Shown here: piece by piece, positions 13,088-19,555 of the stretch
Position numbering within the stretch: position 1 is the stretch's first letter
Layout: every line of letters begins with the position of its first letter
Origin: a virus
IMG/VR virus record: IMGVR_UViG_3300044627_000906
Span: 1-22,778 of that record
Length of the DNA stretch: 22,778 nucleotides
Reading direction: 5' to 3' (one strand)
Position numbers and translations under genes: made by a program
The notes under the pieces: model-generated
Told to the model about the DNA's origin: nothing
The model's input: the letters and a program-made list of their open reading frames with translations, nothing else
Databases searched by the model: none

Positions 13088-14956
13088 TTATCCGTAAGTT
13101 TCAGCCCATTGCTCAGCAAAGGCATCATCTAAATTGATTGAGTGTCGCATATCCTTTTGACGTCTAGTTGCCCACCTGTTGTTGGCATACTTAGTGGCAA
13201 AGGATGTTTGTTGCATTAGTTCACGTACTCGAATGATAGCAAACCATAGGGCCATCACGCAGTCGGTTGGGTTTTTAGTATCTGGCTTCCAAGTAATTAA
13301 TTGTTGTACCAGAGATTTTAAACCTTCAGAACCTTCATTAGATGGAAGTTCTATTAGGTTGTTATCTTGAAATCTGCCGTCCCGCAGACCGCCAAATAAG
13401 GCGGACATAGAGGCCACACCAAATGATGTGTCCCATTTATTCTTACCAGTAAAGTGTGGATTTAACTTACAACCATACTGGGCTAAATACTGAACTAAGT
13501 CAGTGTCCATCTGATACGCCTTTTGATGGGCGTTGATTTCAACTCGAAACTCTTGAGGGGAGTATCTTTCTACCCACTCTTCAATTAGAGCACGCTCTTT
13601 TTGGGGAGTAGGGTCAACCATGTTTACGCAATCTAAAACATAAACTTTGCCATCACCTCGGTTAAATGTAACCGCTACGAAAGCAGACCTGCCTGATACG
13701 GCAGGGTCAAAACCTATAACTGTGTAAGTACCTTCAACGCGACTTGGATGGCCTGGTGTTCCAGCCTTGAGAGGTCCGCGCTTTCGCATTCCATTGACAC
13801 ATCCTGCGACGACTGTTGGTGGGAAGATTGCGTCTTCGACAACATCTTCTTGTTGGTAGACCATTGCCCATACTGACGGAGCAACCTCAGACCTTCTAGT
13901 AAAGAGTGAGGGTCCATCCCACTTTGGATATAATCCTTCTTCATTTGCTTCATCCTGTTCTCCCTCAGCCCTATCCGTCCAGGGCCATAATGTTTTCCAG
14001 TTGGCTGGTTTCTCGTCAAACTCCAGAACCGCTGGTTGGGAGAAGTAAGTGAAGGGAGACTTGCCACCTGTCCATTGGTCGCCATCTCTTATCATCTTAT
14101 ATAAATCTATAGGGGCGACACGGGTTCCTACGATAAGTAGTTTTCCGTGCCGTCCCAGACGGGTGATGACTTCTTTCTGAAGCCATTCAATTTGCTTTTC
14201 CCACTCATGTGAGTTTGAGTTCATCACCACATCGTCTAGGATAATCAGGTCGGCGCGAGCACCGTAAATCTGAGACCCGAATCCTAATGCTTGAACCGTA
14301 GGGTCCTTTTCGCCAGAGTCGCGTCCAGTACCTAGGTAAATCATATCTGCTGACCAAGTAGGTGAGTCAGCCTTGTATCCGCCGTTAGGTCCAAAGGACA
14401 TCTGTAACTTAGTCCAGTTTGGATGGGACATACGGGTCTTGATTGCACTTAAAAATTTTCTAGCCATACCTTGAGTCTTAGAGACGATAATAATTCTGAC
14501 GTTAGGGTCTACGGCTATGCGATAGGTCACATAGTTGATTGTGATGACTGTAGACTTGGCGTGCTCAGGTGGTACGTTAATTAGAACTCGGTTGCTGGCC
14601 GCAGGCTCGTAGGTCATAGACGGATGTAGCCAACGGGGTTCCCGACCTTCAATAAGGTCCACCCAGTCTTTATGGTGGTCGAACAACTTGGTGTCTAGGA
14701 ATTGCTCGGAGAAATCCTCAAACGAGATATCCTTCAGATTGGCAAGGTCAGCCTTAACACCTTTACCAGCAAGTCTTGATTTATCGGCCTCAGCCTTAAA
14801 CTCAGGGTCAGACATCGACCACTGGCGGAAGGTAACATCATTACGACCAACAGCCTTCATGGCGTCAGTGATGGTGCTACCCTGGGTCAAGAGTTCCAGG
14901 ACCTGCTTCTTAGCAGTCTCCTTGGGAATGTCTTGTTTGCCAGGCTTTCGTCCCAT
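13088..14956 (-). CDS. Terminase large subunit with N-terminal HTH segment
   Basis: A 622-residue packaging motor and nuclease. Residues 15-60 form a helix-turn-helix-like segment (KKQVLELLTQGSTITDAMKA then RQWSMSDPEFKAEAD) like those in small terminase subunits. The ATPase follows: a deviant Walker A, NVPPEHAKST, at about 127-136; Walker B LIILDDV at about 237-243; coupling motif VGTR at 276-279. The nuclease has acidic residues in GFDPAVSG (D417), VEIN (E473) and NPTDCVMALW (D565), as expected for the RNase H-like fold. The usual TerL length is 450-600, so the HTH is extra, and no separate small terminase gene is visible upstream. AGGAGG stands before ATG 14956. It is the first gene of the leftward module. 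Confidence 0.92.
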   Translation of the reverse strand: MGRKPGKQDIPKETAKKQVLELLTQGSTITDAMKAVGRNDVTFRQWSMSDPEFKAEADKSRLAGKGVKADLANLKDISFEDFSEQFLDTKLFDHHKDWVDLIEGREPRWLHPSMTYEPAASNRVLINVPPEHAKSTVITINYVTYRIAVDPNVRIIIVSKTQGMARKFLSAIKTRMSHPNWTKLQMSFGPNGGYKADSPTWSADMIYLGTGRDSGEKDPTVQALGFGSQIYGARADLIILDDVVMNSNSHEWEKQIEWLQKEVITRLGRHGKLLIVGTRVAPIDLYKMIRDGDQWTGGKSPFTYFSQPAVLEFDEKPANWKTLWPWTDRAEGEQDEANEEGLYPKWDGPSLFTRRSEVAPSVWAMVYQQEDVVEDAIFPPTVVAGCVNGMRKRGPLKAGTPGHPSRVEGTYTVIGFDPAVSGRSAFVAVTFNRGDGKVYVLDCVNMVDPTPQKERALIEEWVERYSPQEFRVEINAHQKAYQMDTDLVQYLAQYGCKLNPHFTGKNKWDTSFGVASMSALFGGLRDGRFQDNNLIELPSNEGSEGLKSLVQQLITWKPDTKNPTDCVMALWFAIIRVRELMQQTSFATKYANNRWATRRQKDMRHSINLDDAFAEQWAETYG

Positions 14957-15451: not shown

Positions 15452-15480
15452 TTGACTATTAGGGGTAGTCGTGGTAAGAT
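15452..15480 (+). promoter_or_regulatory. Rightward sigma70-type promoter P1
   Basis: The -35 is TTGACT (15452-15457), the spacer is 17 bases and the -10 is TAAGAT (15475-15480). The -10 runs into the dyad GATAC-GCA-GTATC (15478-15490), so the start-site region is itself a potential operator. It reads toward the operon that starts at 15744, through promoter P2 and the leader hairpin. Confidence 0.65.
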
Positions 15481-15629
15481 ACGCAGTATCACAATTAAAT
15501 AAGGTTAAGCAGTATCGGATAGGTCGCTTAGATAGTGTGAACCAAATCACATTAAACTTAGGGCGTGTCGAGTTGCTAAACTAGATTAAGCGTGATATAC
15601 TTACGCAGTAATACAATTAAATAAGGTTA
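15480..15629 (+). repeat. 28-bp direct repeat at the two promoter start sites
   Basis: Positions 15480-15507 and 15602-15629 are two copies of a 28-base element that differ at only two bases, with a period of 122 bases. Both begin at the end of a -10 box and contain a small dyad around GCA followed by ACAATTAAATAAGGTTA. The element therefore occupies the initially transcribed region of both promoters. It is a good candidate for a regulator operator or a shared leader RNA motif. Confidence 0.75.
15573..15601 (+). promoter_or_regulatory. Rightward sigma70-type promoter P2
   Basis: The -35 is TTGCTA (15573-15578), weaker than in P1, the spacer is 17 bases and the -10 is TATACT (15596-15601). 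The dyad TTAC-GCA-GTAA (15601-15611) overlaps the last -10 base, as at P1. The same downstream element follows. The transcript would start just before the large hairpin at 15625-15721. Confidence 0.55.
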
Positions 15630-15721
15630 GGTAGTCAAGTAGTAGTTAGGCTTGATTAGATATTAGTAGCAGTAGGTCGCCTATGGTATCACGACCCTAA
15701 TTACTACTTGATTACCTAACC
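15625..15721 (+). repeat. 26-bp leader hairpin upstream of the rightward operon
   Basis: Positions 15625-15650 pair with 15696-15721 over 26 bp. Only two DNA mismatches occur and both are G-U pairs in RNA. The loop is 45 bases and has its own GGTCG/CGACC stem (15675-15679, 15692-15696) that competes by one base. It lies between P2 and the ribosome site of the first gene and ends 22 bases before its ATG. No U-run follows, so a simple terminator is unlikely. It could be an RNase III processing site, an attenuator or an origin structure. Confidence 0.7.
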
Positions 15722-16082: not shown

Positions 16083-16133
16083 GTCGTAGCCGATAGGTTC
16101 GGGTTCTCTAGGGTTCGATACCCTACTACGACA
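16083..16133 (+). ncRNA. Compact tRNA-like fold, 51 bases
   Basis: The ends GTCGTAG (16083-16089) and CTACGAC (16126-16132) make a perfect 7-bp acceptor-like stem, followed by A at 16133. Immediately inside the 3' strand is a perfect 5-bp T-arm (TAGGG/CCCTA) with the seven-base loop TTCGATA, close to the tRNA TTCRANY rule. A 4-bp hairpin CCGA-TAGGT-TCGG with GG in its loop takes the D-arm place. Only six bases remain where the anticodon arm should be, so it cannot decode. CCA is not encoded directly after the discriminator. It may be a tRNA remnant, a small tRNA mimic or a processing signal between the first gene and P3. Confidence 0.45.
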
Positions 16134-16497: not shown

Positions 16498-17709
16498 ATG
16501 CCGATAGATGATGACGAACCTACCGAGTATGGTTGCGGTACATGTAGTTATACATCTACTAGCGAGGACGACTTCATGCTGGTAGGTGATGACCTACTAT
16601 GCGAGAGTTGCCGAGCATGGTGTAATTATTGTGAGGAGTATTGCCACAATGATAATACCCACTATGTCGAGGGTGTAGGCGATTATTGCGAGAGTTGTTG
16701 GGAGAACCACACTAACTATTGCGAGAGATGTAGTTGTACATATTCCGAGAACGAGAGTATGTACAATATCGAGGATAGGGGTGAGTATTGGTGCGAGGGT
16801 TGCTATGAGGACAATGGTTCTTATTGTGATGACTGCGACCAATACTACGCGAGAGAGTGTGATAGTTGCGGTGGTGGTGGTAGGACTAACCTTATCCACG
16901 ACTACTCATACAAGCCCGACCCTAAGTTTATAGGTCAAGATAAGAATAACCTATACTTTGGGATAGAATTGGAAATGGAGATTAGGTCAGGCGACCTAGC
17001 GAGTAGTGCTAGATATGTAGCAGAAAATATAGGCGAGTGGTTCTATATGAAGCAGGATAGCAGTATCGGTCAAGGTGGCTATCGTGGCTTCGAGTTAGTA
17101 TCTCACCCTATATCCTTTGCTAAGTGGTCGGATATGCCAGACTTTGATAGAACCTTAGACTATCTAAGAGAAAATCAAGAGGCAAGGGCATGGGACGCTA
17201 AGAGTTGCGGACTACATATACATGTAAGTCGAGAAGGATTTAAGAGTGGCGCACATGTACATAGGTGGTTGGCACTAGTGTACAAGAACGCACCCGATAT
17301 GATGAGATTTGCTGGTCGTAAGTCAGACTACGCAAAGTTCAATGATGTGTACAAGTATGATGAGTACGATAGACCATACTTTACACTAGCCGACAAGGTG
17401 GCTGACCCTAGAGGGGTGAACACCGAGAGGCACTCTGCTATAAATACACGCAACGACCACACGCTAGAACTTAGGTTCTTTAGGGGAACTACTAAGCCTA
17501 GTGGTGTTCGTAGTGCTATACAATTAGCACACGCTAGTATAGAATATACTCGCAACCTAAATCTATCAGATGTAAAGATAGGTATGCTAGGTTGGGAGTG
17601 GTTCTATGATTATGTAGAAGCCAACAATGGCTACTACCCAGACTTATATGAGCGTATGTCCAAAGTACGCTCATTAAGTATCAACAGTAATGAGTTAGTC
17701 AATGCGTAA
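16498..17709 (+). CDS. Zinc-ribbon/amidoligase fusion protein
   Basis: A 403-residue two-part protein. Residues 13-124 hold about 20 Cys in repeated CxxC pairs (C13/C16, C35/C38, C42/C45, C64/C67, C75/C78, C99/C102, C110/C113, C121/C124), a string of LIM- or treble-clef-like zinc ribbons. From about 152 the protein follows the amidoligase_2 pattern, related to glutamate-cysteine ligase/glutamine synthetase-like folds: FGIELEME (E157, E159), GFELVSHPI at 197-205, SCGLHIHVSR at 236-245, and LELRFFRGT near 325. These enzymes join carboxyl and amino groups with ATP. AAGGAG precedes ATG 16498. The glutamine amidotransferase 12 bases downstream is a natural ammonia source. The zinc ribbons likely choose the target, which is unknown. 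Confidence 0.85.
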   Translation: MPIDDDEPTEYGCGTCSYTSTSEDDFMLVGDDLLCESCRAWCNYCEEYCHNDNTHYVEGVGDYCESCWENHTNYCERCSCTYSENESMYNIEDRGEYWCEGCYEDNGSYCDDCDQYYARECDSCGGGGRTNLIHDYSYKPDPKFIGQDKNNLYFGIELEMEIRSGDLASSARYVAENIGEWFYMKQDSSIGQGGYRGFELVSHPISFAKWSDMPDFDRTLDYLRENQEARAWDAKSCGLHIHVSREGFKSGAHVHRWLALVYKNAPDMMRFAGRKSDYAKFNDVYKYDEYDRPYFTLADKVADPRGVNTERHSAINTRNDHTLELRFFRGTTKPSGVRSAIQLAHASIEYTRNLNLSDVKIGMLGWEWFYDYVEANNGYYPDLYERMSKVRSLSINSNELVNA

Positions 17710-17721
17710 GAGAGGAGATGT

Positions 17722-18594
17722 ATGTGTCTATTAGTAGTGTGTAATCCTAATTCCACACCCAGTAAAGATGAACTTACTACTGGTGCGTGTAAGAACCCAC
17801 ATGGCTTTGGCTTTGCGATAGATACTGGTGCTGGTATTATATCAGAACGCAGTATGTCCGCTAAGAAGTCTATCGCTAGGTTCTTAGAATTGCGCGAGCA
17901 ATATCCTAATGGCTATGCTATGTGGCACGCTAGGTATGCTACTCATGGAGTAAAGAACGAACTTAATTGCCACCCCTTCAAGGTAGTGGGTGAGCATGAT
18001 ACTTACTTAGCGCACAATGGTGTGTTAGATATTCATATACCTAAAGGTGATAAGCGTAGCGACACTAGGATTATGGCAGAGGAGTTATTGCCTAGACTAG
18101 GTGGTGTGTCTGCCTTAGACGACGACTATGTATATGATATGATTAGTTCATGGGCTAGTGGTAATAAGGTAGCAGTAATGACTAATGACCCTAGCGCACA
18201 ATACAAGATTTATATTATCAACGAGAACTTAGGTAGTTGGGACGACAATGGTGTATGGTGGAGTAATAACTCTCACAAACCTATCGTATCCACGCCACGC
18301 ACTACTACCTATAATCACACCTATGGTGAGCCTAGTGTGTATGATATTGTAGCAATAGACGACCACTTCAACCCTTCTCTATATGAGGAGAACAAGTTCG
18401 AGTGTCCTAGTTGCGAGTCAATAGTAGACTTATGGGAGAACGAATATTATTGTCAGATGTGTGAGGCTTGCTTCGACTGTGAAGTGAACTTCTTAGACTG
18501 CTTATGCTATCACCCTAATCATAAGAAGGAGATAGGTGAGGAGTATGGATACCTAAGCAACAAGTGGTACACGAAAGAGCCACTTGACTTCTAG
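17722..18594 (+). CDS. Class II glutamine amidotransferase with Cys-rich tail
   Basis: A 290-residue protein beginning MCLLVVC, so Met removal leaves Cys2 as the N-terminal nucleophile. Signature segments of the Ntn glutaminase follow: GFGFAID, MWHARYATHG near 73-82, NCHPF, YLAHNGVL near 94-101 and SDTRIMAEE. It should release ammonia from glutamine. From about residue 227, CPSCES, YCQMCEACFDC and CLC make a zinc-ribbon-like tail, absent from ordinary enzymes of this class but echoing the N-terminal ribbons of the amidoligase just upstream. No synthetase domain is attached, so the neighbour probably uses the ammonia. The start at 17722 is set by GAGAGGAG. A promoter for the next genes overlaps its 3' end. 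Confidence 0.88.
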   Translation: MCLLVVCNPNSTPSKDELTTGACKNPHGFGFAIDTGAGIISERSMSAKKSIARFLELREQYPNGYAMWHARYATHGVKNELNCHPFKVVGEHDTYLAHNGVLDIHIPKGDKRSDTRIMAEELLPRLGGVSALDDDYVYDMISSWASGNKVAVMTNDPSAQYKIYIINENLGSWDDNGVWWSNNSHKPIVSTPRTTTYNHTYGEPSVYDIVAIDDHFNPSLYEENKFECPSCESIVDLWENEYYCQMCEACFDCEVNFLDCLCYHPNHKKEIGEEYGYLSNKWYTKEPLDF

Positions 18595-18983: not shown

Positions 18984-19127
18984 ATGTTAGAGAACGATTA
19001 CATATGGACTTGCTTCATACGAAAGGCTGACGCTAAACATCTTTCAGATGAAGAGTTGAAAGAGATGAAGTCAGAACTACAAATGGCAGTTCAGGCTATC
19101 TGCTTTACTCATGGGATACATAACTAA
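18984..19127 (+). CDS. 47-residue hypothetical protein
   Basis: A frame from ATG 18984 to TAA 19127 with an AGAGAGGAT ribosome site. It begins MLENDYIWTCFIRKADAKHL, contains an amphipathic charged helix (SDEELKEMKSELQMAVQAIC), and ends FTHGIHN. There are two Cys and three His, but no clear metal motif. Its stop overlaps the whiB start as TAATG, so the two are translated together. Function is unknown. Confidence 0.65.
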   Translation: MLENDYIWTCFIRKADAKHLSDEELKEMKSELQMAVQAICFTHGIHN

Positions 19128-19555
19128 TGGCAGGTGCGTTTGGTACTGGTCTAAAGAATAGCGTGTTTGGCTATATATTTAATGACCTAGACCTTGATGT
19201 TAGCGATGGGTTATGTGTTAATCATGATGACCCTGACCTATGGTTCGCTGGTGAAGCGGAGAAAGAGGAAGGCGAGAAGTGGACATTCAATAGAGAACAG
19301 AGAGAGCGAGTAGCACTAGAAGTAGATAGGGCTACTCAGGCTCTCGCAATATGTAAGAATTGTCCAGCCAAAGTTAATTGCTTAGAACTTGGTATGCGTG
19401 GTACACAGATATACTATGGTATATATGGTGGCACTATGCCAGGTGAGAGGTTACTTAAACTTGGTAAGAGTATGAAGAAAGCAGAGTACGCTAACAAGGT
19501 TAACTTCGCAAATAAAGTTAGGAGAACTATGAAAGAAAGGGGAATAAGTGGATAG
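19127..19555 (+). CDS. whiB: WhiB-family Fe-S transcription factor
   Basis: A 142-residue WhiB-like protein. The four cluster ligands are present: C30 (DGLCVNHDDPDLWFA), then C76, C79 and C85 (CKNCPAKVNC), the canonical C-Xn-C-X2-C-X5-C pattern that holds a 4Fe-4S cluster. The turn that contacts the host sigma factor reads GIYGG (98-102) rather than the usual G(V/I)WGG. A Lys/Arg-rich C-terminal tail (MKKAEYANKV... VRRTMKERG) can bind DNA. Family members work with actinobacterial sigma-A to redirect transcription, and phage copies can repress host whiB genes. It is the clearest host marker in the window. The start overlaps the previous stop. Confidence 0.92.
   Translation: MAGAFGTGLKNSVFGYIFNDLDLDVSDGLCVNHDDPDLWFAGEAEKEEGEKWTFNREQRERVALEVDRATQALAICKNCPAKVNCLELGMRGTQIYYGIYGGTMPGERLLKLGKSMKKAEYANKVNFANKVRRTMKERGISG

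Follow-up and report, generated by a model that had tools for sequence, protein, structure and literature searches.

The window, which is the whole stretch of DNA analyzed here (22,778 nucleotides), is a 22.8-kb freshwater virus record of IMG/VR (IMGVR_UViG_3300044627_000906). Besides its terminase gene, it carries two adjacent genes that encode a carboxylate-amine ligase and a glutaminase, with the following features.

13088-14956: terminase gene
16498-17709, plus strand: ligase of the Amidoligase_2 family (Pfam PF12224), 403 aa
16534-16869, plus strand: N-terminal ribbon string of the ligase with eight CxxC motifs, residues 13-124
16945-17682, plus strand: ligase catalytic domain, approximately residues 150-395
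17710-17721, plus strand: intergenic gap of 12 nt with a purine-rich ribosome-binding stretch, GAGAGGAGATGT
17722-18594, plus strand: class-II (Ntn) glutamine amidotransferase (GATase_4), 290 aa, with Cys2 as nucleophile
17722-18285, plus strand: glutaminase catalytic domain, residues 1-188
18403-18507, plus strand: Cys-rich C-terminal ribbon of the glutaminase, C228 to C262, eight Cys
19127-19555: WhiB-like gene

The two reading frames share a strand, and their positions and 12-nt spacing agree with those given in a preliminary description of this DNA; the corresponding gap measures 8-15 nt in 90/93 related pairs. The strand opposite the terminase carries a series of small genes, the WhiB-like gene among them. 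Around the pair lie small ORFs of no assigned identity, the WhiB-like gene, a transglycosylase-like protein and a sigma factor, and no ATP-grasp, GS-like or cyclotransferase gene was found among the neighboring genes inspected. The WhiB-like gene, which we take to be a pointer to an actinobacterial host, is syntenic with the pair in 161/174 loci (a tally in which some contigs are counted repeatedly), and the host of the window virus is probably an actinobacterium. Upstream of the small-gene operon, two 34-nt direct repeats (15480-15513 and 15602-15635; 88% identical) are possible promoter or operator elements, and the same intergenic region holds a 26-nt inverted repeat (15625-15650 and 15696-15721; 92% complementary, arms 45 nt apart). 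A T-arm-like sequence at 16083-16132, GGGTTCGATACCC, resembles the 3' half of a tRNA. We rejected it as a tRNA, as its Rfam E-value is 0.55, under the gathering score, and ARAGORN calls none.

The window ligase matches PF12224 with an E-value of 2.3e-5 and a score of 24.8 bits, exceeding the curated cut-off of 22, and all 53 members of the ligase alignment match the same family (E ≤ 0.05). Its AlphaFold (AF2) model has a mean pLDDT of 87.5; the input alignments for AlphaFold held no rows from annotated phage records. Foldseek searches with this model recover YbdK, GmaS (gamma-glutamylmethylamide synthetase), plant GCL, PafA and Dop, and the predicted fold is that of the GS/GCS/PafA superfamily. 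Thus, the profile match and the GS/GCS-type fold match both uphold the Amidoligase_2 identity proposed in the preliminary description. Among solved structures, the folds closest to the ligase domain are those of PafA/Dop, GCS and YbdK (PDB 4bjr, 4b0r, 2gwc and 1r8g), which match it with E-values of 4e-5 to 2e-3 at 9-14% identity and differ from it in having neither ribbons nor a partner glutaminase. Fourteen catalytic residues (G155, E157, E159, D187, S189, E199, H240, H242, R245, R274, N316, T322, E324 and R326) are invariant in 72/72 phage pairs and in 35/35 wider pairs that include Nocardia and plasmid copies. By analogy, E157, E159, D187, E199 and E324 would be the acidic ATP/metal residues, and domain identity predicts that the window ligase forms amide bonds in an ATP-dependent manner.

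The glutaminase is equally well placed in its family. The window protein matches Pfam GATase_4 over the curated cut-off (E = 8.8e-7), and all 43 members of the glutaminase alignment match the same family. Cys2, directly after Met1, is kept in 72/72 phage pairs and 35/35 wider pairs, and C2, R71, T74, H75, G76, N82, H84, P85, H98, N99, G100 and D114 are invariant in the 72. The motif HxRxATHG...N.HP...HNG aligns with the GlmS glutaminase (1xff), and Foldseek matches the AlphaFold model (mean pLDDT 79.6) to the GlmS glutaminase (E = 2e-7), PurF and EgtC. The claim of a Cys2 class-II glutaminase is therefore sound at the level of profile, fold and motif, and both active sites are intact: E157, E159 and Cys2, whose loss in relatives would have spoken against the original proposal, are kept throughout the 72 pairs.

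Both proteins carry cysteine-rich ribbons, as first described. In the ligase, the CxxC motifs fall at C13/16, 35/38, 42/45, 64/67, 75/78, 99/102, 110/113 and 121/124, and their 16 Cys are kept in 68-71 of the 72 distinct pairs while the remaining ribbon sequence falls to about 30-40% identity. The tail of the glutaminase has Cys at 228, 231, 244, 247, 250, 253, 260 and 262, kept in 70-71 of the 72. A Pfam search gave no zinc-ribbon match for the window ligase ribbon itself; single members of the ligase alignment match DZR-type models, and the ribbon weakly resembles a LIM domain (profile E = 0.019; Foldseek match to the LMO2 fold, E = 0.05). Going by these Cys patterns and weak LIM-like matches, the ribbons may bind zinc.

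How tightly the genes are linked is clear from searches of viral contigs made with each window protein alone, which gave 18 loci for the ligase and 80 for the glutaminase. Of the 80 loci recovered with the glutaminase, 79 have the ligase immediately upstream, and the remaining contig begins inside the glutaminase gene. Residue conservation was scored over 72 distinct pairs from related contigs, and terminase and sigma-factor anchors were used to avoid recovering only the pair searched for. Of the contigs of sufficient length, 24/24 anchored on the terminase and 27/28 anchored on the sigma factor have the pair, which is thus nearly fixed at this site in a large freshwater phage group. Estimates of dN/dS are about 0.05-0.32 for those ribbon, ligase, glutaminase and tail segments in which synonymous sites are unsaturated, pointing to purifying selection on the ligase and glutaminase subdomains for which the ratio can be computed. 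One close relative (L318) has the same flanking genes and lacks the pair, so the pair is dispensable rather than essential; it is a conserved yet dispensable module of these phages. In that relative, a SprT-like metallopeptidase and small ORFs replace the pair in the WhiB-to-terminase interval (L318:10286-14516).

The preliminary description also suggested that the shared ribbons dock on a common target, in which case the two ribbon sequences would be expected to diverge in step. Distances of ribbon and tail do correlate when the catalytic domains are controlled (partial r = 0.37), but the partial correlation drops to 0.12 when five neighboring genes (ORF96, WhiB, the transglycosylase-like gene, the sigma factor and DUF1599) are added as controls, no larger than the value of 0.15 between the ribbon and the sigma factor. 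We therefore treat shared docking of both ribbons as an unsupported, if conceivable, suggestion. Covariation of ligase and glutaminase within the phages is real, but does not exceed that of other adjacent genes, and we do not count it as evidence of partnership beyond what adjacency gives.

Beyond the relatives of the window, a neighborhood survey finds the pair in other phages, plasmids and Nocardia, and the co-occurrence on which the original proposal depended is borne out. The nearest annotated phage relatives are the Marvin-group mycobacteriophages, in which gp105 and gp106 form the pair and both have ribbons. Methylophilales phages, a Manatee Spring podovirus and an Acinetobacter phage carry remoter pairs, whose ligases have a few CxxC motifs and whose glutaminases have no Cys-rich tail, a tail that is present in the Marvin, mycobacterial plasmid and Nocardia copies. 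Because the remoter pairs are without the tail, a ribbon on each partner distinguishes an actinobacteria-associated clade. On sequence grounds, this double-ribbon clade comprises freshwater actinophages, Marvin-type phages, mycobacterial plasmids and loci of Nocardia and Pseudonocardiaceae, and double ribbons, called unusual in the preliminary description, are its hallmark. Some distant amidoligases have no glutaminase neighbor; for example, Clostridioides difficile phage AR1086-1 was considered as a carrier of the pair and rejected, as the gene downstream failed to align with glutaminases.

In collections of bacterial genomes, most members of the clade come from Nocardia and others from Amycolatopsis, Actinokineospora and Virgisporangium, and the double-ribbon pair is carried on large mycobacterial plasmids. 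Its distribution in Nocardia is patchy: 28/78 genomes have strong matches (E < 1e-70), sometimes at two separate sites, and the others show GlmS-level background only. Among 297 genomes sampled across the class, the sole strong match was in the Nocardia genome from which the search started. Neighbors at these bacterial and plasmid loci include Prim-Pol, ParB-like, DUF4192, DUF2786 and ArdC genes, in keeping with mobile elements. On a Mycobacterium intracellulare plasmid (L210:613-9726), the pair has a 1580-aa methyltransferase/SNF2-helicase protein on one side and an HSP90-like ATPase on the other, and in Actinokineospora an ArdC-like anti-restriction gene follows it (L120:8886-9809). On a Mycobacterium paragordonae plasmid (L211:5773-7427), the ligase gene is annotated too short, with loss of the ribbon, and the glutaminase beside it is missing from the gene-table annotation. 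A freshwater fragment (L213:181-2164) has a glutaminase upstream of a Marvin-type ligase and is possibly another tandem array.

Most Nocardia loci contain two alternating ligase-glutaminase pairs, and two loci contain three, in the order LIG-GAT-LIG-GAT(-LIG-GAT) (for example, L108:1822-8892 and L112:4900-8907 among Nocardia loci L108-L127). In most of these copies the end of the ligase gene overlaps the start of the glutaminase gene by about 6-13 nt. Maximum-likelihood trees of the ligases and the glutaminases (35 each), with modest support at some deep forks, place first copies in one clade and second and third copies in another, and this division matches in both gene trees. Because the same copies separate in both, the pair must have been duplicated as a unit, with cognate partners kept together. 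At the level of gene phylogeny, this unit duplication is the strongest evidence here that the two proteins belong together as cognate components of a single machine, and together with fixation of the pair in related phages it lends good support to the original suggestion that the two genes act jointly. All catalytic residues tested are present in each ligase copy, with a single Gly column gapped in the alignment. In the glutaminase, Cys2, Arg71, Thr74, the HNG motif and Asp114 are retained by all copies. Some Nocardia copies among the 35 wider pairs differ at one His and at two flanking glutaminase positions; several first copies have Arg or Lys in place of His75.

Phage amidoligase/GATase cassettes, typified by phiEco32, LUZ24, tf and PSA-HP1, were reportedly predicted by Iyer et al. 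in 2009. As outlined in PMC3890496 and PMC5498523, these cassettes resemble the window in placing an amidoligase and a class-II glutaminase in one early operon; they differ, as the phiEco32/LUZ24-type multi-ligase cassette does, in carrying extra ATP-grasp, GS-like or cyclotransferase genes, none of which lies beside the window pair. Published accounts describe phage amidoligase/GATase genes in UFV-P2 (PMC3890496), tf (PMC3517423), PSA-HP1 (PMC5498523), OM43 phages (PMC10580990) and Phage-ZRK32 (PMC10945688), and PMC10580990 refers to Iyer 2009 on phiEco32 and to Mageeney 2012 on Marvin. The roles predicted there are cell-wall change against superinfection and metabolite synthesis (PMC5498523 and PMC10580990) and nitrogen metabolism (PMC10945688), and the portions of these five papers drawn on here report no tested enzyme substrate. 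In Methylophilales phages MEP401/402, the two genes overlap (PMC10580990). These phages share with the window a zinc-ribbon-like stretch before the ligase (one, and small), whereas their ligase has only two CxxC motifs and their glutaminase no Cys tail.

Marvin (cluster S; JF704100) is closer. Like the window genes, its gp105 (amidoligase) and gp106 (class-II glutaminase) are adjacent; they share 35% and 32% identity, respectively, with the window proteins and have an N-terminal ribbon on the ligase and a Cys-rich tail on the glutaminase. Marvin differs in having four CxxC motifs in the ligase rather than eight, a long extra C-terminal part of the ligase and a 79-nt gap between the genes. Both gp105 (L001:3920-5281) and gp106 are annotated as 'glutamine amidotransferase domain protein', which misnames the former: gp105 of Marvin and its cluster is the amidoligase, and the real glutaminase is gp106. 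Thus, the amidoligase-glutaminase pair as such is already known from Marvin and published phages, with roles that are predicted only. The ribbons on both partners as the mark of one clade, and the alternating Nocardia arrays, are apparently new, as we found no report of either in the open-licence literature.

We lean toward a model in which the pair is a two-subunit, glutamine-dependent amide synthetase with substrate-selecting ribbons, deployed as an accessory host-modifying phage module. In this model, Cys2 of the glutaminase would hydrolyze glutamine and supply ammonia, the ligase, with its glutamine-synthetase/GCS/PafA fold, would use ATP to activate a carboxylate, and reaction of the two would yield a primary amide. 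The Cys-rich ribbons of both subunits would hold or select the substrate, a free amino acid being a less likely candidate than a macromolecule such as a protein or an envelope peptide, and the phage pair would thereby alter a host component during infection. The ammonia-transfer step is predicted from the glutaminase family, and the linked glutaminase could instead serve as a separate deamidase; the amide product and the role of the ribbons are similarly projected from domain architecture, and the open-licence literature yielded no biochemistry for any relative of the pair. MurT is a Mur ligase and GatD a class-I glutaminase. Together they amidate peptidoglycan (PMC3267633) as a two-gene, two-subunit glutamine-dependent amide synthetase of the kind we propose, and the parallel is one of analogy and not membership, the folds being unrelated.

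Several other functions deserve consideration. Amidation of D-Glu and DAP is a feature of actinobacterial cell walls, which would suit a pair that amidates or crosslinks peptidoglycan stem peptides and so blocks other phages. Such remodeling has been proposed for PSA-HP1, phiEco32 and relatives in PMC5498523 and PMC10580990, but the larger cassette of ATP-grasp, GS-like ligase and gamma-glutamyl cyclotransferase genes, which we see in StenR_269 and which is of the type noted in PMC3890496 for UFV-P2, is not adjacent to the window pair. Moreover, ribbons suit a protein or nucleic-acid target more than a free lipid-linked peptide, and carriage on plasmids and integrated elements needs no wall-based superinfection exclusion; we regard cell-wall remodeling as conceivable, if unlikely. 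The preliminary description proposed tagging. As a peptide or amino-acid tagging system, the ligase, like PafA or GCS, would add a peptide or amino acid to a protein or peptide, and the glutaminase would trim, deamidate or prepare the donor instead of feeding ammonia. The Foldseek neighbors PafA, Dop, GCL and GmaS do join amino-acid amines to glutamates, and ribbons do suggest a macromolecular target. However, a class-II glutaminase, the constant partner here, is the usual ammonia supplier, its GlmS-matching active-site residues are retained, and no candidate tag-peptide gene was recognized beside the pair at the loci inspected. A class-II glutaminase next to an amidoligase points more to ammonia-dependent amide formation, and we consider tagging unlikely.

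The occurrence of the pair in phages, mycobacterial plasmids and patchy Nocardia elements, near genes for ArdC anti-restriction, a large methyltransferase-helicase protein, Prim-Pol and ParB-like proteins, could instead reflect a counter-defense or establishment factor of mobile elements that amidates a host defense or surveillance component. Such neighbors are common on any mobile element, though, and a handful of inspected loci makes neighborhood weak evidence, leaving this function improbable in our estimation. Membership of the pair in a defense system is a separate matter, and was ruled against by the absence of any match among PADLOC defense models. An auxiliary role in nitrogen metabolism, as suggested in PMC10945688 for Phage-ZRK32, which has amidoligase and GATase genes, seems most improbable of all: a small-molecule role would call neither for conserved multi-Cys ribbons in each subunit nor for arrays of two or three cognate pairs that have diverged.

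More speculatively, the amide synthetase we favor could belong to a hitherto unrecognized protein amidation system of actinobacterial mobile elements, in which every cognate ligase-glutaminase complex would convert one defined acidic residue of a host protein to an amide, with Nocardia elements stacking two or three pairs of differing specificity. We hold this extension to be a long shot; if true, the target would be a host protein of defense, transcription or proteolysis.

Phage amidoligases have long been predicted to make unusual amide linkages, and we found no published substrate for them in the open-licence literature. The double-ribbon clade is a better entry point to this question than most, being a minimal pair of two genes with no further enzymes. 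Its Marvin relative is genetically tractable on M. smegmatis, and the paralogous cognate pairs of Nocardia permit partner-swap tests. The interest of the pair is moderate at present and would be greater if its substrate were a host protein. Once known, the target would reveal whether phages and plasmids amidate the proteins or the cell wall of their hosts.
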